Source: Synechococcus sp. RS9916
Lineage (GTDB): Bacteria > Cyanobacteriota > Cyanobacteriia > PCC-6307 > Cyanobiaceae
DNA length: 64,000 bases
Direction: 5' to 3'
Assembly (NCBI RefSeq): GCF_000153825.1
Contig: NZ_DS022299.1
Coordinates: 2,349,707 to 2,413,706, forward strand
The notes below the pieces were generated by a model. That model saw only the letters and a program-made list of their open reading frames with translations, was not told the DNA's origin and searched no databases. This document shows positions 1 through 15,581 of the stretch, in pieces. Within the stretch, counting starts at the first letter, position 1, and every line of letters starts with the position of its first letter. Made by a program: the position numbers and the translations under genes.

Positions 1-3000
1 TGGACTGGAGGAGAAGGCCGTGGGAGCCAGCGCCAGCGCCAGCAGCACCGACTGAGCCCATGGATGAGGAGGCGTTAGCGGCAGTGCCACCGCCGGTGAC
101 GATGGTGAGTGTGTCGGGGACCAGGAAGTTGATGGAGCCGGAGCTGCCGCCTTTACCGCCTTTGCCGCCCATGCCAAAGGTGGCGGATGCCGCGAATTTG
201 GCCTCGCCTTGGGCGGATGCGGAGTTGGTGACGGAGCCACCGGCACCACCACCACCACCGACGGATTGCGCAAAGAAACCGATGGACCCAGCACCTGAGG
301 TGGCGACGTTTCCAGAGATGGAGCCGTTGATGTCACCGGAGCTACCACCACCGCCACCGATGGCGCCTTTGCCGACAACAGCACCAAGGGTGAAGGAGGA
401 ATTGGCGGTTTTGTTGCCAGTTCCTGCAGCGACGTTGGAGGTGACCGAACCACCCTGACCACCACCACCACCGATGGATTGGAGGAGAACGCCGTAGGAG
501 GTGTCGCCTTTGGTGATGAAGGTGCCATCGGCGTAGAAGTTGACGCCGGAGGCGTTACCACCGCCACCGCCAGTGCCACCGATGGCAAAGGAGGCGTTGA
601 GGTTGCCGCCAGCGGAGGCGTTGTTCACCGAGCCGCCGGCACCGCCGCCACCACCGATGGATTGGAGGAAGACGGCATGGGCGTTATCGCCCTGGGTTTG
701 GATCTGTAGATCGGCGATTTGTGCAGCGGAGCCGAGGGAAACGGAACCAGCGGAACCGCCGCCGCCGGCGTCACCACCGGAGGTGTAACCACCACCGAGG
801 GAGAAGGAGGTGTTGGAGGTGGTTGTGGCGGAATTGGAGCCGATGACACGACCGCCGGATCCACCACCACCACCGATGGACTGGAGGAGAAGGCCGTGGG
901 AGCCAGCGCCAGCGCCAGCAGCACCGACTGAGCCCATGGATGAGGAGGCGTTAGCGGCAGTGCCACCGCCGGTGACGATGGTGAGTGTGTCGGGGACCAG
1001 GAAGTTGATGGAGCCGGAGCTGCCGCCATCACCGCCTTTGCCGCCCATGCCAAAGGTGGCGGATGCCGCGAATTTGGCCTCGCCTTGGGCGGATGCGGAG
1101 TTGGTGACGGAGCCACCGGCACCACCACCACCACCGACGGATTGCGCAAAGAAACCGATGGACCCAGCACCTGAGGTGGCGACGTTTCCAGAGATGGAGC
1201 CGTTGATATCACCGGAGCGACCACCGCCGCCACCGATGGCGCCTTCGCCGACAACGGCACCAAGGGTGAAGGAGGAATTGGCGGTCTTGTTGCCAGTTCC
1301 TGCAGCGACGTTGGAGGTGACCGAACCACCCTGACCACCACCACCACCGATGGATTGGAGGAGAACGCCGTAGGAGGTGTCGCCTTTGGTGATGAAGGTG
1401 CCATCGGCGTAGAAGTTGACGCCGGAGGCGTTACCACCGCCACCGCCAGTGCCACCGATGGCAAAGGAGGCGTTGAGGTTGCCGCCAGCGGAGGCGTTAT
1501 TCACCGAGCCGCCGGCACCGCCACCACCACCGATGGATTGGAGGAAGACGGCGTGAGCGTTATCGCCCTGGGTTTGGATCTGTAGATCGGCGATCTGCGA
1601 GGCGCGACCGAGGGAGACGGAACCAGCGGAACCGCCGCCGCCGGCGTCACCACCGGAGGTGTAACCACCACCGAGGGAGAAGGAGGTGTTGGAGGTGGTT
1701 GTGGCGGAATTGGAGCCGATGACACGACCGCCGGATCCACCACCACCACCGATGGACTGGAGGAGAAGGCCGTGGGAGCCAGCGCCAGCGCCAGCAGCAC
1801 CGACTGAGCCCATGGATGAGGAGGCGTTAGCGGCAGTGCCACCGCCGGTGACGATGGTGAGTGTGTCGGGGACAAGGAAGTTGATGGAGCCGGAGCTGCC
1901 GCCTTTACCGCCTTTGCCGCCCATGCCAAAGGTGGCGGATGCCGCGAATTTGGCCTCGCCTTGGGCGGATGCGGAGTTGGTGACGGAGCCACCGGCACCA
2001 CCGCCACCACCGACGGATTGCGCAAAGAAACCGATGGACCCAGCACCTGAGGTGGCGACGTTTCCAGAGATGGAGCCGTTGATATCACCGGAGCGACCAC
2101 CGCCGCCACCGATGGCGCCTTTGCCGACAACGGCACCAAGGGTGAAGGAGGAATTGGCGGTTTTGTTGCCAGTTCCTGCAGCGACGTTGGAGGTGACCGA
2201 ACCACCCTGACCACCACCACCACCGATGGATTGGAGGAGAACGCCGTAGGAGGTGTCGCCTTTGGTGATGAAGGTGCCATCGGCGTAGAAGTTGACGCCG
2301 GAGGCGTTACCACCGCCACCGCCAGTGCCACCGATGGCAAAGGAGGCGTTGAGGTTGCCGCCAGCGGAGGCGTTATTCACCGAGCCGCCGGCACCGCCAC
2401 CACCACCGAGGGACTGGAGGAAGACGGCGTGAGCGTTATCGCCCTGGGTTTGGATCTGTAGATCGGCGATCTGCGAGGCGCGACCGAGGGAGACGGAACC
2501 AGCGGAACCGCCGCCGCCGCCGTCACCACCGGAGGTGTAACCACCACCGAGGGAGAAGGAGGTGTTGGAGGTGGTTGTGGCGGAATTGGAGCCGATAACA
2601 CGACCGCCGGATCCACCGCCACCGCCGATGGACTGGAGGAGCAGGCCGTGGGAGCCAGCGCCAGCGCCAGCAGCACCGACTGAGCCCATGGATGAGGAGG
2701 CGTTAGCAGCGGTGCCACCGCCGGTGACGATGGTGAGTGTTTTGGGGACAAGGAAGTTGATGGAGCCGGAGCTGCCGCCTTTACCGCCTTTGCCGCCCAT
2801 GCCAAGGGTGGCGGATGCCGCGAACTTGGCCTCGCCTTGGGCGGATGCGGAGTTGGTGACGGAGCCACCGGCACCACCGCCACCGCCGACGGATTGCGCA
2901 AAGAAACCGATGGAACCAGCACCAGCGGTTGCAATCGAGCCGGCAATGGAGCCGTTGATATCACCGGAGCGACCACCGCCGCCACCGATGGCGCCTTTGC

Positions 3001-6000
3001 CGACAACGGCACCAAGGGTGAAGGAGGAATTGGCGGTTTTGTTGCCAGTCCCTGCAGCGACGTTAGAGGTGACCGAACCGCCCTGACCACCACCACCACC
3101 GATGGATTGGAGGAGAACGCCGTAGGAGGTGTCGCCTTTGGTGATGAAGGTGCCATCGGCGTAGAAGTTGACGCCAGAGGAGGAACCACCGGAGCCGCCG
3201 GTGCCACCGATGGAGAAGGAGGCGTTGAGGTTGCCGCCGGAGGAGGCGTTATTCACCGAGCCGCCGGCACCGCCACCACCACCGATGGATTGGAGGAAGA
3301 CGGCATGGGCGTTATCGCCCTGGGTTTGGATCTGTAGATCGGCGATTTGTGCAGCGGAGCCGAGGGAAACGGAACCAGCGGAACCGCCGCCACCGGCGTC
3401 TCCGCCTGATGAGCCGGAACCACCAAAAGAAAATGAAGAATTGGAGACCGATGTTGTGACGTTGCTGCCGATGATGGAACCCCCAGCACCACCACCACCA
3501 CCGATGGATTGGAGGAGAAGACCGTGGGCACCTGTGCCCTGTGTTGTCACTTTCAGTGGTTTCGGTACCAAGAAGGAGACCGCACCACCATCACCACCAC
3601 CACCGCCTTTGCCCCCAAATCCGAAGGTGGCAGAACCAGCGACGCTTACATTCCCGGAAACGGAAGCAGAATCCATCACAGAGCCTCCAGCGCCGCCCCC
3701 GCCGCCTACTGACTGGGCTTTGAATCCAAGGGAAGCCTCTCCAAAGGTCGAGATTGAACCGGATAGTGATCCGCTGACGTCGCCGGCAGAACCGCCTCCA
3801 CCGCCTTTCCCGCCGACGCCTACAGAGATGCCGAAGGCGAAATTGGAGTTCGCACTACTGGCTGATGCCGAAGCGTTCGATGTCACCGAACCCCCAGCAC
3901 CACCACCACCACCAATCGACTGAATCAAAACACCGTGCGAAGAGTGTCCTGTGGTGATGAACGTGCCATCAGTGAACATTTCGACATTGCCGCCATCGCC
4001 ACCGTCACCACCCCTGCCTCCCATACCAAAGGCCACAGACAAGTTGCCTCCAGAAGAGCTGTTGTTGGTATTGGAGCCAATACCACCACCACCACCAAGG
4101 GACTGAATAAATAGTCCGGTGGCGTTATCGCCACGCGTTCTAATTGTGAGATCGGCAATGTCTGTAGCGCTGCCAAAGCTCACAGATCCACCTCGGCCAC
4201 CGCCGCCGCCTTTGCCACCAACGGATGCAGACGCGCCGAAATTGAAGGAGGAATTCGCTTTAGTTGTAACTGTGTTTTCGGATTTGACTTCGCCAGCATT
4301 ACCACCACCACCACCAAGACTCTGAACAGTGATTCCAGTGGAGGAATCCTTGAGGGTGTCAACTGTGATGGGAGATAGAGCATTGAAAATGACATTGCCT
4401 CCATCACCGCCCTTTCCTCCATCACCGCCGAGTGCGACGGACAAGGAGCCTGAGAATTTGCCGCCGCCACTTGCGGATGATTTTGAGATGGTGGAACCAC
4501 CAATACCGCCACCGCCACCAACGGATTGCACATAAATGCCGTCAGATGCTTGACCTTTGGTCAAGATGGAGCCTCCGAATCCGACATTTACATCGCCGGC
4601 ATTTCCGCCGCCACCACCTTCACCGCCAGTGCCTAATGAAACGCCCAGAGTGAAGGTGGAATCCTTCTCCTTTGAATCGCTCGATTTTTGATCAGGAGCA
4701 CTGGAGTCAGATTGGGAAACACTACTTCCGCCTGTTCCACCACCACCTCCAATGGATTGAGCGATGAAACCGCGGGAATTGGCACCCCGAGTCTCGATGT
4801 TGGCGAGGGTGTTAACAATCACATTGCCTGCATCTCCGCCAGCGCCTCCCTGTGCTCCAAGAGCAAAAGTCACGCTTAATGAACCACCTTTGTTTTCACT
4901 ACTAGCGCCGCCACCAGTTCCACCACCTCCGCCAACGGATTGGGCGAGAAAGCCTTCTGAATTATTGCCAATCGTTAGGATAGTCAGTTCAAATGGATTG
5001 CTAGCACTTGTCCCAACTGTAACGAGTCCAGAATTGCCTCCGGTTGCGCCTACTCCAGATTCATTAACGCCACCTCCAAATGTGTATTTGGATTTGCTTT
5101 TGTTGATGCTATTGCTGCTTGAGGCACCGCCTGAGCCACCACCACCTCCAATCGACTGGGCAACAAAACCTTTGGCTAATTCGCCGAATGTAGTAATCGT
5201 TAGTCCATTGCCGGTGCTGTCAGAGTTGACAGTTACGTTGCCTGCTACGCCACCACTTCCTCCATCTCCACCAAGGCCAACTTCTGCACTGCCTTGAATT
5301 GATTTATCGCCTTTGAGTGAGGCTGTGGCTGATAATGATTCAGAGCTACCTCCTGCGCCACCACCACCACCGATGGATTGGGCAAAGAAGCCATAGGCAA
5401 AATCGCCATGGGTTTTAATCTTTCCTGAAACGTTCACAAGAACATTTCCAGATCGACCTCCTTCTCCTCCCTCCCCGGAGATATTTGCTCCCAAGGTGAC
5501 AGGGCTTCCTTCTTTGGAAATTGATGCTGCGTAGCTGCTGCTGCTACCACCGGTGCCGCCACCGCCACCAACGGATTGCGCTAGTAATCCATAAGAAAAA
5601 TCACCACTGATGATGTTGCCGTTGGAGTCGACGTATCCAGTTGTGATATCGCTGCTGGATGTAACCGTGACATTGCCGCCACTGCTACCGGCGCCACCGG
5701 ACCCGCCAAGATTGACGCTGCCACCAACGCTGACAGATTTTCCAGTGCTAACAGTGCCCTGAAGGTTTAGAGAGCTGCCGCCCGAGCCGCCGCCTCCGCC
5801 GATGGATTGAGCAACAATTCCACTTGCATGGTTTCCAAAGGTTTGAATGGTTTGTGCTGTGTTGAACACTGATACTGAACCTGCTGATCCGCCTGAACCA
5901 CCAGTACCTCCGATGCTCACTGCTGCATTGACTGCTGTTTTTTTGCTGCCACCAAGTTGCCCGTTGACAGTGCTTCCACCTGCGCCACCGCCTCCTCCAA

Positions 6001-9000
6001 CTGATTGAGCAAAGATGCCATAGGCGAAATCGCCATAAATATTATTTTCTCCATTCTCAACGTAATTAGTTCCAGTAAAAATATTTCCGCTATTCGTGAT
6101 CGTGACGTCTCCTGAATTCGCCCCGCTTGCTCCTTTACCGCCAACATTGGCCCCAACGTTGGCAGCTACACCACTCTCTGAAGCTGCTAATTGAGCATTG
6201 ATGACACGACCGCCGGATCCACCGCCACCGCCAAGTGACTGAGCATAAATACCGGCACTGTTATTGCCAATTGTTTTGATGACGCCAGAGTTTTTGATGC
6301 TGACATCGCCAGAGGTTCCGCCTTCTCCTCCATTCCCGCCAAGGCTTACGCCAACGTTGGCACCGACGGATCCACTGGTCGAAAGTGCACCCTGAATTGA
6401 TATAGCTTCTCCGCCTGAGCCGCCACCACCTCCAACCGACTGGGCATAGATGCCGTAAGAGTTGTTGCCGTAAAGAGCGGAAAGACGGTCGTCAGTGATT
6501 CCCGTCGTGATATCGGCTGTATTGCTGACGGTCACGTTGCCAGCGCTGCCTCCTTTCCCGCCGCCCCCGCCTAAGTTCACACCAGCGCTGACAGCATTGC
6601 CGCCACCTGCACCCTGCAAGTTCACGGTGCTGCCCCCTGCACCACCGCCGCCTCCGATGGATTGAGCTAGGAGTCCGGTAGAGAAATCTCCACGCGTTTT
6701 TATTGAACCACCCGTGTTGTCAATGCTCACATTTCCAGCCGTATTTCCTGATCCAGCTCCTCCGCCAATATTGACACCGGCGTTGACTGCCGCAGTTTTG
6801 CCGACGCTGACTTGTGCTGAAAGTGTGCTGCCACCATCTCCACCACCACCGCCGACCGATTGTGCATAAATGCCATACGCGTAATTACCTTTCAGCTCGT
6901 AACCCGTATCGTTAGATTTAATAGTGCCTGTTTCAATATTGGCGGCATTAATTACTTTCACATTGCCAGATGTTCCTCCGCTGCCACCTTTTCCCCCAAT
7001 ATTCGCAGCCATATTGACGGTTGCTGTTCCGCCGCCGCCTAGTTGAATGTTTGTAGCGCTTCCTCCCGAGCCACCGCTTCCTCCGAGTGACTGTACGTAG
7101 ATGCCTGCAGATGAATCACCGATGGTTTGAATCCTGCTGCCGGAGTTGGTGATGGTGACATTTCCAGCTGTTGCTCCCGCTCCAGCTGTTCCCCCAATTT
7201 GAGCGCCAGCATTAACTGCTGCACTGCCACCAAGAGAAAGGCTTCCTGATAATGAGTTGCCACCATTGCCTCCACTACCACCTACTGATTGGGCAAAGAT
7301 TGCAGCTGAGTTGCTACCGACTGTGCTCAGATTTGAGCTGTTGGTAACGGTGACATTTCCCCCTGATGACCCGGCACCGCCTGATCCACCAATGGTGGCA
7401 CCAAGGCTTACGGCACCTGTGCCACCGCCCTGGAGGGTCAAAGACATTGCTGACCCCCCGGTTCCACCACCACCGCCTAGGGACTGGGCAAAAATGGCTG
7501 AGGCATAGCTCTCGCCGAAGGTGCTAATTGATTCGCCTGATGAACTAACGGTTACATCGCCACCGGTACCTCCCGACTCTCCTTGCCCCCCAATTGTGGC
7601 TGCGGCATTGACGCCAGCAGTGCCACCCATGCCGACACTTCCACTAATGGAACTACCGCCACTTCCACCACCACCACCAAGCGATTGCGCAAAGATCCCA
7701 TAAGACAAGAATCCTTCGGTTTGAATTGAGCTGGCTGAATTCACAGTGACGGAACCAGCGCTTCCACCTCCGCCACCATTACCGCCAACTGCTGCTGTTG
7801 CAGTTACACCAGCGGTACCACCTATGCTCCCCTGAAGGCTGAATGTTCCTCCGCCTGAGCCGCCTCCACCGCCAATTGATTGAGCCAAGATGCCAGCGGA
7901 TTGGTCGCCTTTTGTGATGATTTGACCGCCTTTGGTGGTGACACTGACAGGACCTGAGTTTCCGCCCTTACCACCTTCGCCTCCGACACTGCCTCCGAGA
8001 GTGACACCAGCTGTTCCTCCTCCCCCCAATTGTGCGTTGACTGTTGATCCACCCTGGCCACCACCACCACCGACGGATTGAGCAAAGATGCCTTGTGACA
8101 GGTTGCCCAATGTCAGGATTTGATCTTCTGGTCTCAAATTGGCTGTAACGCTGACCGAACCGCCTTGTCCGCCTCCACCACCTTTTCCGCCAACAGCAAA
8201 GTTGGCGCTAACACCAGCAACACCACCTGCCGCAAGACTCATGGTTGTTGAGGATCCTCCAGCACCACCACCGCCACCAAGTGATTGAGCAAGGATGCCG
8301 GGGGAGTAGTCGACTGGGTTGTCTTTTGTGTTTGCGAGACCTGTCTGGATCGAACCGTCGCTGTAGCTGAGTTCCACGGAACGACCATCTCCCCCGCCCT
8401 CACCCTTGCCGCCTACTGCCACTGCTGACCCAATACTGGCGACTGGGTTGATGGACCCTGCTCCACTAACGGTTGAGCCGCCGGATCCACCACCACCACC
8501 AATGGATTGAATCAAGATTCCCGGTGAATATCCCCGGTTGGTGGTGATATTTCCCGAAATATCACCGATTGCTTGCCCCCCAGATCCGCCTGAAGCTCCA
8601 TCGCCACCAAGGCCCACGCTTGCTGATACACCAAGTGAGGCAGTCATTGATATCGTGCTGCCGCCTGCTCCACCACCTCCACCAATGCTGGTGATACTGA
8701 CGCCAGGTGAATTTTCAGCCTCTGTTGTAATGCTGCCCGAGAAGGTAGCTGAGGCTCTGTTGCCTTGACCCCCACCAGCTCCGCTACCACCAACTGATGT
8801 AGTTACGGCAATTCCCCCGGCAGCTGCGCCGGCAGCCGATCCACCTGAGCCACCACCACCACCGATGCTCACCACATTCAGTCCAGGAGATTGAAATCCC
8901 TTTGTCCTGATATTTCCAGCAGCCACGACATCTACAGTGCCTGCGTTTGCGCCTGTACCACCATCGCCTCCGACGTTGATAGAAACGCTAGCGACAGACG

Positions 9001-10864
9001 GTCCAGAAGCACTCTTTGTGCTGCCGCCTGATCCACCACCACCGCCAATACTTGTTGCAGTAATACCAGGCGAGTACTTTCCAGTTGTCGTGATATCTGC
9101 ATTGAAAGGATTACCACTTTCGCCAACTTTCACAGTGCCGCCTAAGCCCCCAGATCCACCTTTGCCCCCAATGGTCAAGTTCACACTGATCAATCCACCG
9201 CCACCGCCAGCGCTGTTTGCACTGCCGCCATTGCCACCGCCACCACCAATTGCTTGCACGAGTAGGCCAGGGGAGCTCACGCCGCTTGTGCTGATAGTGA
9301 CTGCGTCTGAACCCGTTGGTGAATTCACAACGGCGGTGCCGCCAACTCCACCTCCACCACCATCCCCACCAACAGCCACGCTGATATCGCCTGCGGAATT
9401 GGCGTCGCCACCATTGCCACCACCACCACCGATGGACTGCACAATCACACCAGGAGCGTAGTCCTGGAAAGTGGTGATAGATCCTTTGCTCAAGTTTGCG
9501 GTTGCTATGCCTCCGTTTCCACCTGGACCCCCTTTCGCGCCGAACGTGATGAAGCCAGAATTGGTACCTGCACTTCCGCCACCACCGCCAATGCTTTGAA
9601 CAAGAATTCCTGAAGAAAGTGATCCTTTCTCCTTTGATCCGGTGGTGATACTTCCTCCTGAGAAATTGATAGTCGCATTTCCGGCATTTCCACCAGCTCC
9701 TGCTTCTGATGAGGTCCCGAGGGTAATTGCAGAAATATTGCTGCCGATTGCACCACCACCACCACCGATGGATTGAACGATGATGCCTTGAGAATTGTTC
9801 CCGCTGGTATTAATCGTGCCTGCCGACATGGAGGCCTCTGCAGATGCCCCGTCACCGCCCTTACCACCTTTGGAACCTCCAAGGTTGGCTAGCGAAATTT
9901 GGCCTGGGACTGAACCACCACCACCACCAACGCTTTGGGCGTTGATGCCAGGCATATTGTCTCCGACTGTCGTAATTGAACCGCTATTGCTGGCCTGAAC
10001 ATTGCCGGCAGCTCCGCCCGAGCCACCAAGGCCGCCCCAGGTGACGATCACCCCCCCTGTTCCTGACTGACCACCCTGGCCACCAACAGATTGAACAAGG
10101 ATGCCGGCGCCGCCCGACCCGCCACTGTTGGACACGCTAATGGTGCCGGCATTGCTACCGGTTGCGAGGCCTGAAACGCCTCCAGTTCCTCCAGCTCCAC
10201 CTGAGCCGAAGGTCCCGCTACCTCCGTTGCCTGCCGTGCCACCTGTGTTTTGAGATAACACGCCAATGGCGGCAGCGTTGCCGCCGCCTGAGCGGTTTGT
10301 GACAGAGACAGTGGCACCATTTTGAATGGTGATGCTTGCTTTTTGGTTGACGGAGCTACCGCCTGCTCCACCTGGTCCTCCACTCGCCAGGCCTGCGCCT
10401 GCTCCGTCACCTCCCTCACCGGAGACGGCGGATGCTTGAACACCTGCAACAGTGCTATTGCTTGAAGTATTGATCGAGACAGAACCACCGCTGGAGAAGG
10501 TGACTTGAACATTGCCGGGGGAGCCTCCTGTGCCGCCGGCTCCACCGTTGCCAACCGAACCGCCACCGGTACCGCCCTTTCCACCAAAGGATTTTGACCC
10601 AACTTGTGAGCTATTCGACCCTGTAACGGTCTGGGTGATGTTGGGGCCTTGTCCTCCCGAGCCACCAGTGCGTCCCGTGGTACTCCATGGGTCGTAGTTT
10701 GGTTGCGAGCCTGTCTTGCCGGTGCCTTGGAGTAAGGGTTCCGATGGAGGTGAGTTGTAGGTCCCAGACGTGACGCCCGTCTGGGCAAGAACACTCGTCG
10801 TTCGTCCCGCCATCAAAAGGAAGGCGGGCAGAAGCGCTAGGGCTGACGAGGTCTTGCGGTTCAC
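1..10864 (-). CDS. Giant secreted glycine-rich repeat protein, N-terminal 3,621 codons (C-terminus outside window)
   Basis: One minus-strand frame is open without a stop from a GTG at 10864 to the window edge, so the gene is partial. The N-terminus is a good signal peptide: MNRKTSS, then a hydrophobic core ALALLPAFLLMAG, then a likely cut after VLA near residue 26. The protein is therefore probably exported. After about residue 60 it is almost entirely Gly, Ser, Ala, Asn and Thr, built from roughly fifty units of about 65-75 residues, each ending in a motif like QSIGGGGGxGG. Such SIGGGGG repeat arrays are known from very long autotransporter-like passenger proteins, which would suggest a cell-surface or extracellular filament or adhesin. 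The barrel or other secretion domain that would prove this lies beyond the window. No clear Shine-Dalgarno precedes the GTG. The many Pro- or Val-rich open frames on both strands here are its shadows. It could instead belong to a cyanobacterial S-layer or giant motility-type protein class. Confidence 0.85.
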   Translation of the reverse strand, partial: MNRKTSSALALLPAFLLMAGRTTSVLAQTGVTSGTYNSPPSEPLLQGTGKTGSQPNYDPWSTTGRTGGSGGQGPNITQTVTGSNSSQVGSKSFGGKGGTGGGSVGNGGAGGTGGSPGNVQVTFSSGGSVSINTSSNSTVAGVQASAVSGEGGDGAGAGLASGGPGGAGGSSVNQKASITIQNGATVSVTNRSGGGNAAAIGVLSQNTGGTAGNGGSGTFGSGGAGGTGGVSGLATGSNAGTISVSNSGGSGGAGILVQSVGGQGGQSGTGGVIVTWGGLGGSGGAAGNVQASNSGSITTVGDNMPGINAQSVGGGGGSVPGQISLANLGGSKGGKGGDGASAEASMSAGTINTSGNNSQGIIVQSIGGGGGAIGSNISAITLGTSSEAGAGGNAGNATINFSGGSITTGSKEKGSLSSGILVQSIGGGGGSAGTNSGFITFGAKGGPGGNGGIATANLSKGSITTFQDYAPGVIVQSIGGGGGNGGDANSAGDISVAVGGDGGGGGVGGTAVVNSPTGSDAVTISTSGVSSPGLLVQAIGGGGGNGGSANSAGGGGGLISVNLTIGGKGGSGGLGGTVKVGESGNPFNADITTTGKYSPGITATSIGGGGGSGGSTKSASGPSVASVSINVGGDGGTGANAGTVDVVAAGNIRTKGFQSPGLNVVSIGGGGGSGGSAAGAAAGGIAVTTSVGGSGAGGGQGNRASATFSGSITTEAENSPGVSITSIGGGGGAGGSTISMTASLGVSASVGLGGDGASGGSGGQAIGDISGNITTNRGYSPGILIQSIGGGGGSGGSTVSGAGSINPVASIGSAVAVGGKGEGGGDGRSVELSYSDGSIQTGLANTKDNPVDYSPGILAQSLGGGGGAGGSSTTMSLAAGGVAGVSANFAVGGKGGGGGQGGSVSVTANLRPEDQILTLGNLSQGIFAQSVGGGGGQGGSTVNAQLGGGGTAGVTLGGSVGGEGGKGGNSGPVSVTTKGGQIITKGDQSAGILAQSIGGGGGSGGGTFSLQGSIGGTAGVTATAAVGGNGGGGGSAGSVTVNSASSIQTEGFLSYGIFAQSLGGGGGSGGSSISGSVGMGGTAGVNAAATIGGQGESGGTGGDVTVSSSGESISTFGESYASAIFAQSLGGGGGTGGSAMSLTLQGGGTGAVSLGATIGGSGGAGSSGGNVTVTNSSNLSTVGSNSAAIFAQSVGGSGGNGGNSLSGSLSLGGSAAVNAGAQIGGTAGAGATAGNVTITNSGSRIQTIGDSSAGIYVQSLGGSGGSGGSATNIQLGGGGTATVNMAANIGGKGGSGGTSGNVKVINAANIETGTIKSNDTGYELKGNYAYGIYAQSVGGGGGDGGSTLSAQVSVGKTAAVNAGVNIGGGAGSGNTAGNVSIDNTGGSIKTRGDFSTGLLAQSIGGGGGAGGSTVNLQGAGGGNAVSAGVNLGGGGGKGGSAGNVTVSNTADITTGITDDRLSALYGNNSYGIYAQSVGGGGGSGGEAISIQGALSTSGSVGANVGVSLGGNGGEGGTSGDVSIKNSGVIKTIGNNSAGIYAQSLGGGGGSGGRVINAQLAASESGVAANVGANVGGKGASGANSGDVTITNSGNIFTGTNYVENGENNIYGDFAYGIFAQSVGGGGGAGGSTVNGQLGGSKKTAVNAAVSIGGTGGSGGSAGSVSVFNTAQTIQTFGNHASGIVAQSIGGGGGSGGSSLNLQGTVSTGKSVSVGGSVNLGGSGGAGSSGGNVTVTSSSDITTGYVDSNGNIISGDFSYGLLAQSVGGGGGTGGSSSSYAASISKEGSPVTLGANISGEGGEGGRSGNVLVNVSGKIKTHGDFAYGFFAQSIGGGGGAGGSSESLSATASLKGDKSIQGSAEVGLGGDGGSGGVAGNVTVNSDSTGNGLTITTFGELAKGFVAQSIGGGGGSGGASSSNSINKSKSKYTFGGGVNESGVGATGGNSGLVTVGTSASNPFELTILTIGNNSEGFLAQSVGGGGGTGGGASSENKGGSLSVTFALGAQGGAGGDAGNVIVNTLANIETRGANSRGFIAQSIGGGGGTGGSSVSQSDSSAPDQKSSDSKEKDSTFTLGVSLGTGGEGGGGGNAGDVNVGFGGSILTKGQASDGIYVQSVGGGGGIGGSTISKSSASGGGKFSGSLSVALGGDGGKGGDGGNVIFNALSPITVDTLKDSSTGITVQSLGGGGGNAGEVKSENTVTTKANSSFNFGASASVGGKGGGGGRGGSVSFGSATDIADLTIRTRGDNATGLFIQSLGGGGGIGSNTNNSSSGGNLSVAFGMGGRGGDGGDGGNVEMFTDGTFITTGHSSHGVLIQSIGGGGGAGGSVTSNASASASSANSNFAFGISVGVGGKGGGGGSAGDVSGSLSGSISTFGEASLGFKAQSVGGGGGAGGSVMDSASVSGNVSVAGSATFGFGGKGGGGGDGGAVSFLVPKPLKVTTQGTGAHGLLLQSIGGGGGAGGSIIGSNVTTSVSNSSFSFGGSGSSGGDAGGGGSAGSVSLGSAAQIADLQIQTQGDNAHAVFLQSIGGGGGAGGSVNNASSGGNLNASFSIGGTGGSGGSSSGVNFYADGTFITKGDTSYGVLLQSIGGGGGQGGSVTSNVAAGTGNKTANSSFTLGAVVGKGAIGGGGGRSGDINGSIAGSIATAGAGSIGFFAQSVGGGGGAGGSVTNSASAQGEAKFAASATLGMGGKGGKGGSSGSINFLVPKTLTIVTGGGTAANASSSMGSVGAAGAGAGSHGLLLQSIGGGGGSGGRVIGSNSATTTSNTSFSLGGGYTSGGDGGGGGSAGSVSLGRASQIADLQIQTQGDNAHAVFLQSLGGGGGAGGSVNNASAGGNLNASFAIGGTGGGGGNASGVNFYADGTFITKGDTSYGVLLQSIGGGGGQGGSVTSNVAAGTGNKTANSSFTLGAVVGKGAIGGGGGRSGDINGSISGNVATSGAGSIGFFAQSVGGGGGAGGSVTNSASAQGEAKFAASATFGMGGKGGKGGSSGSINFLVPDTLTIVTGGGTAANASSSMGSVGAAGAGAGSHGLLLQSIGGGGGSGGRVIGSNSATTTSNTSFSLGGGYTSGGDAGGGGSAGSVSLGRASQIADLQIQTQGDNAHAVFLQSIGGGGGAGGSVNNASAGGNLNASFAIGGTGGGGGNASGVNFYADGTFITKGDTSYGVLLQSIGGGGGQGGSVTSNVAAGTGNKTANSSFTLGAVVGEGAIGGGGGRSGDINGSISGNVATSGAGSIGFFAQSVGGGGGAGGSVTNSASAQGEAKFAASATFGMGGKGGDGGSSGSINFLVPDTLTIVTGGGTAANASSSMGSVGAAGAGAGSHGLLLQSIGGGGGSGGRVIGSNSATTTSNTSFSLGGGYTSGGDAGGGGSAGSVSLGSAAQIADLQIQTQGDNAHAVFLQSIGGGGGAGGSVNNASAGGNLNASFAIGGTGGGGGNASGVNFYADGTFITKGDTSYGVLLQSIGGGGGQGGSVTSNVAAGTGNKTANSSFTLGAVVGKGAIGGGGGSSGDINGSISGNVATSGAGSIGFFAQSVGGGGGAGGSVTNSASAQGEAKFAASATFGMGGKGGKGGSSGSINFLVPDTLTIVTGGGTAANASSSMGSVGAAGAGAGSHGLLLQS
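60..3400 (-). repeat. Near-identical 876-bp tandem repeats (292 residues each) inside the giant gene
   Basis: The same sequence recurs at exact 876-base steps; one anchor (start of a GATGAGGAGGCGTTAGCGGC block) lies at 62, 938, 1814 and 2690. Copies differ at only scattered bases. Each 292-residue unit is a higher-order repeat of four units averaging 73 residues, each ending with a QSIGGGGG-like motif. Copies are in frame. Similarity falls off sharply near 3400, although the same order of sub-units can still be traced in divergent form to about 4300. The array continues past the left window edge, so copy number is unknown. Confidence 0.9.
3400..10110 (-). repeat. Divergent 65-75-residue SIGGGGG sub-repeats
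   Basis: Beyond the near-identical array the protein keeps the same period. A glycine-run motif (QSIGGGGG, SVGGGGG, SISGGGG variants) returns about every 200 bases. Examples lie near 3705, 3915, 4520, 4940, 5370, 5800, 6235, 6655, 7085, 7480, 7875, 8280, 8690, 9050, 9430, 9770 and 10090. The units are clearly homologous but much more diverged from each other than the 876-bp copies, which suggests an older layer of duplication. Confidence 0.85.
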
Positions 10865-10883
10865 GACATTTTGCGACCAATAC

Positions 10884-10911
10884 AAAATAATGTTTTGTTT
10901 TTTTTTGGCAA
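10884..10911 (-). promoter_or_regulatory. Possible promoter of the giant repeat gene
   Basis: On the minus strand a TTGCCA hexamer (10911-10906) and a TATTTT hexamer (10889-10884) are separated by 16 bases, inside an unusually A-rich stretch 20-47 bases before the GTG start. This fits a sigma-70-type promoter but is only a pattern match. The rest of 10912-11023 shows no gene. Confidence 0.3.
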
Positions 10912-11023: not shown

Positions 11024-11057
11024 AAAAGTCCACCCCATCAAGCTGGGGTGGACTTTT
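11024..11057 (-). terminator. Rho-independent terminator after the DUF6447-like gene
   Basis: Perfect 14-bp inverted repeat, AAAAGTCCACCCCA (11024-11037) and TGGGGTGGACTTTT (11044-11057), with a 6-base loop. The A/T ends supply the U-tract. It lies 46 bp after the stop of the gene at 11103 and upstream of the giant gene, so it separates the two minus-strand units. Confidence 0.85.
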
Positions 11058-11102: not shown

Positions 11103-11459
11103 TCAGGCAGCTTCTACTTCCTCAGATGCTGAATTGTCTTCCTGGTTAGGGATCCAAGGTTTGAATCCTTCGCCTTCACCTTCTCCTTCGGCAATTGGTT
11201 CGATGCCTGCGTTCTGAATGATTTGGCCCAGGGCGGCTGTCAGGCTTTGCTGTGCGGCAGCGAGCTGACGCATCCGGAAGCGATGCTCGTTGAGTTCGTT
11301 CTCCGAACGAATCAGATCGTTGAGCAGATTGATGGCTTCAGGAGGCAGTGCCTGCATGGGATAGACCCGGCCATCGAAGGTCAGGGTCTGTTGGTTGGCA
11401 GTGGTCCCCTGCTCTTCGGAACCGTTGGATTCCTGTTGATCCTGATCGAAATCGCTCAT
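11103..11459 (-). CDS. Small DUF6447-like protein with Gly/Glu-rich tail
   Basis: 118 residues. An acidic, Gln/Glu-rich N-terminus (1-24) is followed by a compact LTFDGRVYPMQALPPEA segment (26-42) and a long amphipathic helix (about 42-82) that resembles the DUF6447 family pattern (short TxDGxxY strand, then helix). I make this assignment from pattern memory only. The C-terminal third (83-118) is probably disordered: an EGEGEGEG run followed by FKPWIPN, with a single Trp102. Its ATG overlaps the stop of the upstream dioxygenase gene (ATGA), so translation is likely coupled. Function is unknown. A precursor-peptide or carrier role in the neighbouring putative peptide-modification locus is possible but speculative. 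Confidence 0.7.
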   Translation of the reverse strand: MSDFDQDQQESNGSEEQGTTANQQTLTFDGRVYPMQALPPEAINLLNDLIRSENELNEHRFRMRQLAAAQQSLTAALGQIIQNAGIEPIAEGEGEGEGFKPWIPNQEDNSASEEVEAA

Positions 11460-12340
11460 GCCTTTTGGGAGGTGTGCGAAGAGTGTATGGGGAATTTTGC
11501 GGATGGTCTGCTTCTGATCCAGGGATTGTGATACCCGGGAACAGGATCTCCTTCTTTCATCCCTGCAAAACAGGATTGATGAAGGCCTTGTCGCAGGAGT
11601 TGCACTTGACTGCGCAGGGATGTTGGGGCATGGGCCATCGATGGGTTGAGGCTTAAGACTCCTTCTCCGCAGCCGTAGACGGCCACAAAGGCGAGGCGTT
11701 GTTCAGCTGCCCGATGGCCTTGGCTGCCATGCAGGGTCCATCCATCGTGAAAACTGCAATCGCCCGGTTGAAGCCCCAGGGTGGTGAGGTGTTGCCACGT
11801 GTCGTCCTGCTGCCACTGTCTTTCGTAGTGCTTGTAGTGGCTTAGGGCACTCCCCCCTTCCAGCAGATGACAGCAGGCATGGGGCGTTTGCCAATACTCC
11901 AAAGGAGCATCGTCGATGCCCGTGATTGGGGTCAGCGGAATCCATAAGGTGAGGAACGTGCACCCTTCCACCGGTATGAATAGGGCGTCTTGATGCCAAG
12001 GGGTGTGTTCGCTGCCTGGAGGTTTGAAGTAGGTCTGATCCCTCAACAACCAGATCTGGTCGCTCTGTAGCAGATTCGCTGCTAGTTGGGCCGGCTCCTC
12101 TTCCAAAAGCCATTGCTCCAACTCGGCGTGTTGTTTCCAGAGATTTTCGCGGAAATCCCAGTGTTGGCCGAACTCCAGCACGCTGGTTTCCAAACCGCTG
12201 CTGGTGGGGCTGGCCTGGGAGTCTGCGTTCGGTGAGGCCAGCAGCGCAGCGATCTTGGCGAGCTTGCTGCGTGTACAAAAGCCAGTCGCGAGGCCTTGCA
12301 ATCCTCCGAGGCCCGCGCGGGTCACTGTCGCCTGAGGCAA
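11456..12340 (-). CDS. PhyH (phytanoyl-CoA dioxygenase) family Fe(II)/2-oxoglutarate oxygenase
   Basis: About 294 residues if TTG 12340 is the start; a GTG at 12325 is equally possible. The double-stranded beta-helix metal site is visible: the HxD pair in TPWHQDALF (about residue 115), the distal His in GWTLHGSQGH, and an Arg a few residues later in RLAFVAVYG for 2-oxoglutarate. PhyH-family enzymes hydroxylate diverse small molecules; the substrate here cannot be read from sequence. The N-terminus looks slightly short for the family. The gene is divergent from the prenyltransferase-like gene at 12392 with only about 50 bp between them, and is coupled to the downstream 118-residue gene, so it probably belongs to the same pathway. 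Confidence 0.75.
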   Translation of the reverse strand: MPQATVTRAGLGGLQGLATGFCTRSKLAKIAALLASPNADSQASPTSSGLETSVLEFGQHWDFRENLWKQHAELEQWLLEEEPAQLAANLLQSDQIWLLRDQTYFKPPGSEHTPWHQDALFIPVEGCTFLTLWIPLTPITGIDDAPLEYWQTPHACCHLLEGGSALSHYKHYERQWQQDDTWQHLTTLGLQPGDCSFHDGWTLHGSQGHRAAEQRLAFVAVYGCGEGVLSLNPSMAHAPTSLRSQVQLLRQGLHQSCFAGMKEGDPVPGYHNPWIRSRPSAKFPIHSSHTSQKA

Positions 12341-12391
12341 GACTGTCTCCCGCTGTGGCTGCCATCATGTCGCCCCAGAAGTTCTTTTGGT

Positions 12392-14335
12392 ATGCGGGCG
12401 ACCTGGCAGAGCTTTTGGACAGATGACTCCCCGATCGAGGAGTTGTTCTCGACGTTGTCGCCCTCAACATTTCAACGCCAGTTTCTCCAAGGGCTGACAC
12501 CGGTGGATGCACCGGCCATCGGTTTGGAGGTTTCTAAACGGGGGCTTCGCCGCCGCCCCCATCTGGCTGCCTGGGTGCTGAATGGGCGCGTCCAACGTTG
12601 GACCAACGTTCTGCAACCGTTGCTTCGCGCGGATGGCCGCTTTGCTTCTGGTCTGCAGATCTGCGATCTGTTGCCCTTTTTGCAGGCTCAGGATTTGTTC
12701 CGTCCCGAGGCTTGGTTGGAACTGACGCAGCCGCCACGCCGTCAAGCCGGCCAATCATTTTTGCTGTTTCGTCAAACCCTTCAGGCACTCCCACCAGCAA
12801 AACTCAGGCAACAGCTCGAAGCCTTGCATGGGCAGCTGACGCCGTCGTTGCAGCAACGTCTACCCCTTCCCGATGCGGGCTGGTGGTCGGCACTGGATGC
12901 GTTGCCTCTGGCTGGCGTTGAGCAGCTCGGCCTTGATCTGGATCCACAAGGCAGTGGTTGGCGTTTTCTGTTTGCAGTCAGCGACCAAGAGGCGCTATTG
13001 GAAGCCATTACCTTCCCAGTCGCCCTGCGTGCTGGGCTTGAGGTCTTTCCTTTGGCCTTGGCGCTGGATAGTCGTCATTCCATTCAGGAGCGCTATGCCC
13101 TGGAGGTGTTTCCCCGTTATCGCCACATGCACACCATCGTTGGCTACCCCGGTGAGGTGCCTGCCGATGCGAGTCAATGGCCCGTCTGGCCGGTTCATGA
13201 GGCTCTACTGCCAGCCCGTCGTTTGCAGCAGTTGATGCAGGCCTCGGTGCATGTGCCATCGGTGAGCTACGGCTCGAACCACTTGGCGCTGCGTGGAGGT
13301 CTCAGTCACCAGAAAGTCGTTGTGGAAGCCGGCATTCCCGTGGATCACAAGGCCTATCTCGGGGTGATGGTCACGGGCAGCAAGGCAGCCTCCGAGCGCA
13401 GAAGCCCCTTTGAGTGCGCCATCGCGTGCCTTGCTGGAGCGAGCGATGGTTGGTGTGGGTTCGCCCTCAGTCCCGGTGCTTCCGATCAGTGGGTGCCGCT
13501 GGCTTGCCTCACCTTGCTGGCGCCATGGCGGGACGATGCCCGCTTACGAGTGGCTTATGCCAAGCAGGTTGACCAGCTCGAATCGCTGCTTGGGGAGCCC
13601 CGGCCGGTGGGGTACAGCCATCAGACACCGCCTGATCTCGATAGTTCCATCTGGTTGCGTCGCTGTCTGTTGGCCTTGCAGCGTCCATCGACCGAGGCCT
13701 TGGATCAGTTCCTGGCGGAGGGTTGGGTTGATGGCCACGGCATTCGCACCTACAGCGATTCACAAGCCATCGCTGATTTCATCCACCGTCCTGCGGAGGA
13801 GTTGAGCGGTTGGTGTTCCCTTCACGACTGTGTGCTCGCGAACTGGGCAGCGGACCCAGCTCTTCCTCAGGCTGCCCAGGCATTGCAGCAGTTGCGCGAT
13901 CGTCTCCAGCGGCAGAAGTTTGGCGCTTATTGGTGGCCTCTTGATGCGTTGGTGTTGAGCCTGATGCCACGGGGTTCGCTTCCGCGCGGCGTGATCGAGG
14001 CTTGCCTTAACCAAAGTCTGTCTCCCGCGGTTGCAGCCGTGATGCCTGAGGCGGAACGCGAGCGAGTGCTCCGCTTCTCGCGGGCGTTGATGCTGCTCCG
14101 TCACGGCAAGGCGGAGGAACAGCAGGAAGGTCATGCCGTGTTGGAGGCGTTGATTGACAGCCCCGAGGCGTTCCGAAACATCTTGATGATGCAGTTGCCC
14201 GAGCCAGAGTGCACGGATCCCACGACGCAGACGGCCTGGAGGTGGAACGGTCCGATGGAAGGATGCCTGGCACCGGATCCTCTGGGATATCTGGCGGCAG
14301 CCCTGGTGGTGTCGGTTCAGGAGCGGTCGAGATAG
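12392..14335 (+). CDS. Putative fused ABBA-type (LynF/TruF/PatF-like) prenyltransferase and terpenoid-cyclase-like toroid protein
   Basis: 647 residues from ATG 12392; the frame is open upstream to 12296 but that part overlaps the divergent gene. The N-terminal half (about 1-330) has an order of motifs I associate with cyanobactin peptide prenyltransferases: a helix, then GLEVS (44-48), WVLNGRVQRW (61-70), later GLDLDPQGSGWRFLFAV (180-196), and LEVFPLALALDSRHSIQERY (216-235) resembling the GF-F-F-G-S-IEIY strand pairs of the ABBA fold. The C-terminal half (about 345-640) is helical with toroid-cyclase-like signatures: DGWCGFALSPGASDQWVPLA (352-371), GIRTYSDSQA (450-459), LSGWCSLHDCVLANW (471-485) and GAYWWPLDAL (511-520). 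A fusion of these two folds would suggest prenyl transfer followed by terpene cyclisation. The gene converges on a Nif11-leader peptide gene, overlapping it by 19 bp. Family assignment is from pattern recognition only; a wholly new enzyme is possible. Confidence 0.5.
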   Translation: MRATWQSFWTDDSPIEELFSTLSPSTFQRQFLQGLTPVDAPAIGLEVSKRGLRRRPHLAAWVLNGRVQRWTNVLQPLLRADGRFASGLQICDLLPFLQAQDLFRPEAWLELTQPPRRQAGQSFLLFRQTLQALPPAKLRQQLEALHGQLTPSLQQRLPLPDAGWWSALDALPLAGVEQLGLDLDPQGSGWRFLFAVSDQEALLEAITFPVALRAGLEVFPLALALDSRHSIQERYALEVFPRYRHMHTIVGYPGEVPADASQWPVWPVHEALLPARRLQQLMQASVHVPSVSYGSNHLALRGGLSHQKVVVEAGIPVDHKAYLGVMVTGSKAASERRSPFECAIACLAGASDGWCGFALSPGASDQWVPLACLTLLAPWRDDARLRVAYAKQVDQLESLLGEPRPVGYSHQTPPDLDSSIWLRRCLLALQRPSTEALDQFLAEGWVDGHGIRTYSDSQAIADFIHRPAEELSGWCSLHDCVLANWAADPALPQAAQALQQLRDRLQRQKFGAYWWPLDALVLSLMPRGSLPRGVIEACLNQSLSPAVAAVMPEAERERVLRFSRALMLLRHGKAEEQQEGHAVLEALIDSPEAFRNILMMQLPEPECTDPTTQTAWRWNGPMEGCLAPDPLGYLAAALVVSVQERSR

Positions 14336-14580
14336 GCCTGGAAGTCCTGCATATCGAACAGATCGTCGAGGCCTCCTTCGACCAGCAGATCAAGCTCGTC
14401 GTCACTCATGGCCAGGATCTGTTCGGCTTGGGCGCGCAGTAAATCAGCCGCGCGCAACTGAAATCCCTCCTTGGCTGCCAGCTGCAGCACCCCCTGGAGG
14501 TCGAGTTGGCTGAGCTGTTCCTGCAGATCGGGGTTCTGCTCCACCTTCGCGAGGAACGACTCCAGATCCTGAAGGGCCAT
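14317..14580 (-). CDS. Nif11-type leader peptide, candidate RiPP precursor
   Basis: 87 residues. The N-terminal 66 residues match the Nif11 leader pattern: FLAKVEQNPDLQEQL (9-23), then LAAKEGFQLRAADLL (34-48), then MSDDELDLL (58-66). It is followed by a double glycine (69-70), the usual cut site for a C39-type peptidase. The remaining 17 residues, LDDLFDMQDFQAYLDRS, would be the core. They contain no Cys and no Thr, so lanthionine chemistry is excluded, but there is one Tyr (83), the residue O-prenylated by LynF-type enzymes. The last codons overlap tail-to-tail with the end of the prenyltransferase-like gene. Some Nif11 proteins are not RiPP precursors, so the precursor role is inferred. Confidence 0.75.
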   Translation of the reverse strand: MALQDLESFLAKVEQNPDLQEQLSQLDLQGVLQLAAKEGFQLRAADLLRAQAEQILAMSDDELDLLVEGGLDDLFDMQDFQAYLDRS

Positions 14581-14666: not shown

Positions 14667-15581
14667 GTGCATATCCATTTTCTGATTCCTTGCTACGGCG
14701 GTCAGATCTCGGAAGCCACTTTCACCAGTTTTGTGCGCTTCATTGCTCGCGCACCGCAGTGGGGATTGGAGTGGAGCCTTGACACGCTCGTCAATGAAAG
14801 TTTGATCCCGCGGGGCCGCAATGCTCTGGTCGCGCGGGCGATGCACAACCCGCGTGCCACCCATTTGATGTTCCTGGATGCCGACATTGGCTTTGATCCG
14901 GAATACATCCTGATGCTGCTTCAGGAAGATGTTGATGTGATTGGTGGTGGCTATCCGAAAAAGAGCCTCCCCATCGATTACGTCATCAATCCCATCGGCG
15001 ATGGGGAAGCCGATGACGGCAAGGCGGAGGTGGAACGCATTGGCACCGGTTTTCTGCTGTTGAAGCGTGATGTGTTTCAGCGCATGGCTGATGCCATGCC
15101 TGAGTTGAAATACATGGACGATTGCGGTCTGGATCCGTCCATCAACGAGCACCTCTACGCCTATTTCGAGTGCGGCCTGTTTGGCGAGAAGGTGTTTATG
15201 AGCGAAGACTGGTTGTTCTGTAACCGCTGGCGTGCGCTGGGTGGGCGCATCTTCATCTCCAAGCGTTTTGCTCTCACCCATGTGGGCAGCTATGCCTTCT
15301 CTGAGGCTGCTCAGGCAGATCTGCTCACCCGTCTTAGTGCGCAGTTGATGGCGCCAGCGGCCACGGCTGCAACGTCACCGTTGAGCTCTCCTTCGGCATC
15401 CAATGCCAGCTCCGAGACCGCTGAGAAGCCTGCAAGTCGGAGCACCAAGGCCAAGCCAGCCGCCAAAACGGTCAAGGCCAAGCGTCCTGCGGCTCGGACC
15501 AAGTCCGCACCCAAGTCGACGCCAAAACCTGCTGGTCGCACCACCCGACGCAAGGGTGCAGACAGTCCACCGGCAAACTGA
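14667..15581 (+). CDS. Family-2-like glycosyltransferase with basic Lys/Ala/Pro tail
   Basis: 304 residues from GTG 14667. The catalytic domain covers about 1-225: HFLIPCYGG at the start, RNALVARAM (51-59), and the metal/nucleotide-sugar DxD motif in [11 protein letters not shown] (DAD at 71-73). [10 protein letters not shown] near 175 fits the acceptor side of GT-A folds. From about residue 240 the protein becomes a Ser/Ala/Lys/Pro/Arg-rich tail (repeated [22 protein letters not shown]) like histone H1 tails, unusual for a glycosyltransferase. Donor and acceptor are unknown. It heads a run of plus-strand genes (hisS, a second glycosyltransferase, ugd, epimerase). Confidence 0.75.

Follow-up and report, generated by a model that had tools for sequence, protein, structure and literature searches.

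A four-gene cassette in Synechococcus sp. RS9916

We analyzed a 64,000-nucleotide stretch of the Synechococcus sp. RS9916 genome (NZ_DS022299.1; hereafter the window, to which all coordinates refer). It contains a cassette of four genes that encode, in order, a DUF6447-like protein, a PhyH-type oxygenase, a 647-amino-acid (aa) protein joining a predicted prenyltransferase to a predicted terpene cyclase, and a peptide with a Nif11 leader. All four genes lie where an earlier sequence-based reading of this locus (the original prediction) had placed them. The features are as follows:

12392..14335, plus strand: predicted prenyltransferase-cyclase fusion, 647 aa; open in six genomes
12392..13390, plus strand: N-domain, ABBA-prenyltransferase-like, a cyanobacterial family of its own; profile, alignment and fold search
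13409..14332, plus strand: C-domain, predicted monodomain class II terpene cyclase with an MstE-like toroid; profile, motif and fold matches
13634..13648, plus strand: DxDSS motif (D415, D417), putative class II catalytic acid; invariant in all six fusions
14317..14580, minus strand: Nif11-leader precursor peptide, 87 aa; Pfam and NCBIfam matches; six genomes, 77-90% identity
14371..14580, minus strand: leader, residues 1-70, GG at 69-70; TIGR03798/PF07862 match; presumed cut after GG
14320..14370, minus strand: putative core LDDLFDMQDFQAYLDRS, residues 71-87 (17 residues); Tyr83 codon at 14332-14334
14317..14335, no strand: tail-to-tail overlap of the fusion and Nif11 genes, 19 bp, exact in all six genomes
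11456..12340, minus strand: PhyH-type Fe/2-oxoglutarate (2OG) oxygenase, TTG start; PF05721, E 8.9e-11
11103..11459, minus strand: divergent DUF6447 paralogue; E 5.9e-7; 4-bp overlap with the end of the PhyH gene
11024..11057, 3' of the DUF6447 gene: perfect inverted repeat with arms of 14 bp each and a 6-base loop, read directly from the sequence

The full cassette is present in six of the 31 genomes of the genus. Gene order is unchanged in the six, and so are the strands (DUF6447 and PhyH genes minus, fusion plus, Nif11 gene minus). The same six genomes came up for the fusion, for the Nif11 gene and for the PhyH orthologue (for the latter two, all 31 were searched). The fusion is a real gene because its homologues in the five other genomes, at 54-65% identity, keep the reading frame open over its full length; across the six, the N-terminus is invariant (MR..W..FW) and the C-terminus conserved. 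Two of the carriers, the cultured strains Synechococcus sp. UW140 and UW105, were recovered by an alignment-based scan of genome contigs; the same contigs yielded no relative when a single fusion protein served as the query. The Nif11 gene converges on the fusion, as originally described. The original prediction had also named a fusion gene lacking a Nif11 gene as the observation that would speak against it; none was found among the six fusion-carrying genomes, all of which have the Nif11 gene.

The two halves of the fusion protein and their relatives

Used alone as a query, the fusion gave no meaningful match in Pfam, NCBIfam or the PDB. Positions 345-530 of a profile of the six fusions matched MstE (E 2.7e-7 to 6.4e-6) and, more strongly, the PDB entry 6ij1, "Prenylcyclase" (E 1.1e-10). 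The three toroid motifs that the original prediction had pointed out, GAYWWPLD among them, do occur in it and line up with cyclases of the MstE family. A full-length AlphaFold2 model built from three sequences had a predicted local distance difference test (pLDDT) score of 42, and its top Foldseek match was MstE (E 0.042, probability 0.89). We aligned seven cyclase domains, from the window locus and from loci of four other cyanobacterial genomes, and found DxD and WW invariant in all of them. By sequence, the C-terminal half is securely placed in the class II cyclase family of the MstE type, and its catalytic activity is predicted. Viral contigs held no relatives of the cyclase, and phages none of the fusion.

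The N-terminal half belongs to a cyanobacterial family of its own. An N-domain profile that included two split homologues from genome G559 detected relatives in 25 further cyanobacterial genomes. We placed the window N-domain in this family because it matched the family alignment (hhalign E 1.3e-4, versus 0.085 for a reversed control), gave a weak BLAST match to L037 (E 0.01) and shares its gene context. Eleven residues are invariant over 24 aligned sequences (E46, W70, E110, G180, R191, E238, P289, H306, K308, K320 and Y322). An AlphaFold2 model of the domain, again from three sequences, reached a mean pLDDT of 55 and a predicted template modelling score of 0.57. When this low-confidence model was compared by Foldseek with a library of 350,542 chains, the best 27 of the 83 PDB matches were all ABBA prenyltransferases, including DMATS1, TleC, FunA, AnaPT, PirF, CloQ, CdpNPT, PagF, KgpF, LimF and NotF (best E 0.017). 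One fold taking the first 27 places in a library of this size is not chance, despite weak E-values and a poor model. An ABBA-type fold of the N-terminal half is thus supported at the level of the model.

The original prediction had likened this half to the cyanobactin prenyltransferases LynF, TruF and PatF. The low-confidence model supports the likeness in the ABBA-type fold; family membership is not supported. TIGR04445, the model of these enzymes, has no match in the source genome, and hhalign comparison with six LynF-family sequences was no better than with reversed controls; the fold and the peptide substrates are probably shared. A predicted structure devoid of an ABBA barrel or a toroid, the other outcome that had been named as contrary, was not seen: the top Foldseek matches were ABBA enzymes and MstE, from poor models. 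The N-domain family has no Pfam or NCBIfam model and is likely a family of peptide prenyltransferases.

Might one half be catalytically dead or repurposed, the ABBA-like domain binding the leader or the cyclase only shaping the prenyl pocket? The N-terminal half is far from every characterized prenyltransferase, and the C-terminal half matches MstE mainly over profile positions 345-530 and diverges beyond. However, E110, R191, E238, K308 and K320 are kept throughout the 24 diverse N-domains, as DxD and WW are in the cyclases, which makes this explanation very improbable.

The surroundings of the N-domain genes support a context of ribosomally synthesized and post-translationally modified peptides (RiPPs) for the family. 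We scanned 17 candidate peptides near such genes, the window's included: ten match the Nif11 leader model and three the NHLP model. LanM-like or C39 genes, judged by eye, occur at several stand-alone N-domain loci (L065, L068 and L069). On an Acaryochloris plasmid, the N-domain gene lies between a Nif11 precursor gene and a methyltransferase gene, with a RiPP radical S-adenosylmethionine enzyme encoded close by, and on a Pseudanabaena plasmid it occurs together with LanM and Nif11 genes.

A split version of the cassette was found in genome G559, from another cyanobacterial family. Neighboring genes there encode a protein with the N-domain, a cyclase of the MstE type (E 2.5e-77 to MstE), two PhyH proteins (BLAST E 3e-31 and 6e-17 to the window PhyH) and a 98-residue NHLP-type peptide with the core ...GCTWGVSCQSSSN, which shows a CxWxxxC pattern. 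The cluster contains a second N-domain paralogue of 388 aa (L037:3365-4531); the other one adjoins the cyclase gene. In two other genomes (loci L035:5433-8271 and L036:9002-11658), the same type of cyclase is fused to a different N-terminal half, beside genes for PhyH and a giant RHS-like protein. These N-terminal halves, like the partner protein in L038, could not be aligned with the window N-domain. L035 and L036 also encode a Gly-rich protein of 231-247 aa with CNWKTGC or CNWASGC, and there the terpenylated substrate may be a large protein instead of a short peptide. The C-x-W-x3-C pattern thus recurs in three putative substrates (G559, L035 and L036), which fits Trp as the acceptor at these loci; it is absent from the window peptide.

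Other arrangements of N-domain genes were also observed. Fusions of the N-domain to a C-terminal 2OG-Fe(II) oxygenase occur at L058, L061, L062, L063, L070 and L073, with PF13640 present in the four that were scanned; another, on a Pseudanabaena plasmid (L086), adjoins LanM and Nif11 genes. L064:2693-3544, next to an N-domain gene, looks by eye like a flavin-dependent tryptophan halogenase, as in the Moorena mpp cluster described below. L071:375-1400, likewise next to an N-domain gene, encodes a possible toroid protein with LDLDD and weak PDB matches to squalene-hopene cyclases.

These contexts bear on what the fusion modifies. It could prenylate and cyclize another acceptor, a small aromatic metabolite or a protein such as the DUF6447 product, with the Nif11 gene a mere neighbor that has its own role. 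MstE acts in a small-molecule meroterpenoid pathway, the window core contains no Trp, and the first six N-domain/2OG loci, which share a conserved context, showed no leader peptide over a distance of about 1.5 kb. Against this, the peptide and fusion genes are co-inherited with an exact tail-to-tail overlap in six genomes, N-domain relatives adjoin RiPP precursors, and a leader peptide accompanies the split version too. We therefore regard another acceptor as quite unlikely.

The Nif11 peptide and the proposed pathway

The Nif11 peptide scores above the curated cut-offs of both Pfam (PF07862, E 1.5e-10) and NCBIfam (TIGR03798, E 9.7e-12). Its reported make-up, 87 residues with a GG site ahead of a 17-residue core that has no Cys or Thr and a single Tyr, proved correct. 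The core also lacks Trp, and its C-terminal residue is Ser in the window versus Thr in the five relatives. None of the six peptides contains Trp anywhere, so the acceptor of the NctPC/ChrPC kind of maturase (see below) is missing from all of them.

Conservation of the peptide far exceeds that of its enzymes. The ratio of nonsynonymous to synonymous differences per site (pN/pS) was 0.18 for the peptide (0.10 for residues 71-82), 0.42 for the fusion and 0.34 for PhyH; synonymous sites are near saturation, so that the comparison between genes counts and the absolute values do not. The whole source genome has 37 Nif11 matches; the strongest resemble prochlorosins, and their cores vary and mostly contain Cys.

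Taken together, these results suggest that the cassette probably makes a terpenoid-modified RiPP by leader-guided prenylation, cyclization and hydroxylation. The Nif11 leader would present the core to the fusion enzyme. The N-domain, as an ABBA-type peptide prenyltransferase, would then move a prenyl chain, probably C15-C20, onto a core side chain, most likely that of Tyr83, and the C-terminal cyclase would protonate the chain via the DxDSS acid and close fused rings. PhyH may hydroxylate the terpene or the peptide, and a C39 exporter from another part of the genome would cleave off the leader behind GG and export the product. Prenylation and ring closure are supported by homology and precedent; we infer the prenyl donor, the acceptor residue, the order of steps, the target and role of PhyH, the role of DUF6447 and leader removal.

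The original prediction named no described pathway with this combination, but counterparts are published. Prenyltransferase-cyclase fusions acting on peptides were first described in 2024 (Hubrich et al. 2024, as described in a 2026 review, PMC13290415). NctPC joins an ABBA prenyltransferase to an MstE-like cyclase in one protein, which geranylgeranylates Trp and cyclizes the chain; ChrPC, a trans-isoprenyl-diphosphate-synthase-like prenyltransferase half fused to a cyclase, also acts on a RiPP (PMC13290415). The window protein likewise combines a prenyltransferase and an MstE-like cyclase, the prenyltransferase half being assigned by low-confidence fold and gene context. By description, it resembles NctPC in domain order and type and in its substrate, a ribosomal peptide (putatively so in the window), and the NctPC prenyltransferase domain too has low similarity to cyanobactin prenyltransferases; however, NctPC uses Trp, which the window peptide lacks. 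With ChrPC it would share the principle that one fused protein prenylates and then cyclizes on a peptide, but the prenyltransferase half of ChrPC is of another fold class.

In the published Moorena mpp cluster (PMC11791876), the Nif11 precursor MppE is accompanied by the prenyltransferase MppC, the terpene synthase MppD and the oxygenase MppG, and prenylation by MppC requires the Nif11 leader. The window cassette resembles it in a leader ending in GG, an ABBA prenyltransferase (predicted in the window, leader-dependent in mpp), a terpene synthase and an oxygenase (PMC11791876, PMC12715784). The mpp enzymes, however, are encoded by separate genes, and the mpp core, ACWRWSG, bears lanthionine and bromotryptophan and is geranylated on Trp82 (PMC11791876, PMC12715784); the window cassette has no LanM or halogenase gene. 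MstE itself, from the merosterol pathway of Scytonema, shares the monodomain class II cyclase family and the DxD motif but stands alone, and its identity to the window C-terminal half is low. Prochlorosins and synechococsins also have Nif11 leaders, and the source genome encodes many such peptides; theirs are hypervariable, Cys-containing cores accompanied by a LanM, whereas the window core is near-invariant and free of Cys. In a survey of RiPP clusters in marine Synechococcus, "a conserved terpene synthetase" is named alongside Nif11 peptides, with no mention of a prenyltransferase (PMC10783134).

Several observations weigh against the proposed pathway. Both AlphaFold2 models are of low quality (pLDDT 42 and 55), the Foldseek E-values are weak (0.017 at best), and Pfam, NCBIfam, PDB and hhalign searches detected no sequence similarity of the N-terminal half to known prenyltransferases. 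The characterized fusions use Trp (PMC13290415), which this core lacks, and MppC did not accept a Tyr in place of Trp82 (PMC12715784). The TAY codon of Tyr83 has two bases in common with the TAR stop codon of the fusion. Finally, a neighboring glycosyltransferase gene is distributed in the same six genomes as the cassette. Perfect co-occurrence, which we had considered as proof of linkage, is weakened by this gene: because its distribution is identical, the co-occurrence partly reflects clade or island membership.

Within a leader-guided pathway, Tyr83 seems the best acceptor in the core. It is invariant in the six genomes, but this is weak evidence because the fixed overlap with the fusion stop leaves hardly any residue but Tyr. 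Tyr as the acceptor is supported indirectly by the Nif11 peptides at L072 and L074, beside N-domain genes, in which a Tyr stands last or nearly last and the core is free of Trp. By analogy with cyanobactin enzymes that prenylate Arg or Ser/Thr (PMC13290415), the chain might instead be attached to Arg86, also invariant, or to residue 87, which is either Ser or Thr in all six genomes. Both residues fall inside the 19-bp overlap, so their conservation is likewise constrained, and the Tyr-ending peptides at L072 and L074 again point to Tyr; we consider these acceptors unlikely.

Accessory genes and significance

The DUF6447 and PhyH genes form one operon, on the far side of the fusion from the Nif11 gene, where the original prediction had noted a PhyH dioxygenase and a "small protein". 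The TTG start of the PhyH gene is backed by relatives, and invariant H116, D118, H204 and R215 supply the HxD...H residues and the 2OG-binding Arg. We rejected DUF6447 as a cassette-specific gene: a canonical copy lies elsewhere in nearly every genome of the genus (G000:C1:840760-840972; matches in 30 of the 31), seemingly as a core gene of these picocyanobacteria, and the cassette holds an additional copy that has diverged. The inverted repeat downstream is a probable terminator, although a consensus terminator scan missed it. No C39 peptidase is encoded in the window, in agreement with the original prediction; the source genome has two C39 exporter genes at other sites, accompanied by an HlyD-like partner gene.

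The flanks common to the six cassettes comprise a glycosyltransferase-like gene, a hisS-like gene and a giant repeat-protein gene. The glycosyltransferase-like gene (14667-15581, plus strand), divergent from the Nif11 gene and 90-95% identical in the six genomes, its only hosts, may be part of the cassette or of a shared surface island. The giant Gly-rich repeat open reading frame (1-10885, minus strand; at least 3628 aa, running past the left window edge) adjoins the cassette in all six genomes, and its product resembles a surface protein. In four relatives (L016:5267-6040, L017, L019 and L020), a secreted-looking protein of 251-257 aa, presumably Tic22-like, is encoded between the giant gene and the DUF6447 gene; the window lacks it.

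The concept of a prenyltransferase-cyclase RiPP is thus already known; what is new is the host group, a near-invariant core free of Trp and Cys, and perhaps the N-domain family. We tentatively entertain, as somewhat doubtful, a more specific reading: on its single near-invariant Nif11 peptide, the cassette would build a terpenoid that is polycyclic, hydroxylated and linked to Tyr instead of Trp. This would be the first cyclized-terpene RiPP joined through Tyr. On that reading, the near-invariance of the peptide would probably reflect a conserved, physiological function and not a diversified chemical arsenal.

If true, the proposed pathway would place cyclized-terpene RiPPs in marine picocyanobacteria as well and add an attachment residue that is not Trp. 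The N-domain family, often found beside Nif11 or NHLP precursors and sometimes fused to a 2OG oxygenase, would offer a direct hook for genome mining. A peptide conserved beyond its own enzymes is the opposite of the prochlorosins, so that its cellular role may be testable in cultured strains.

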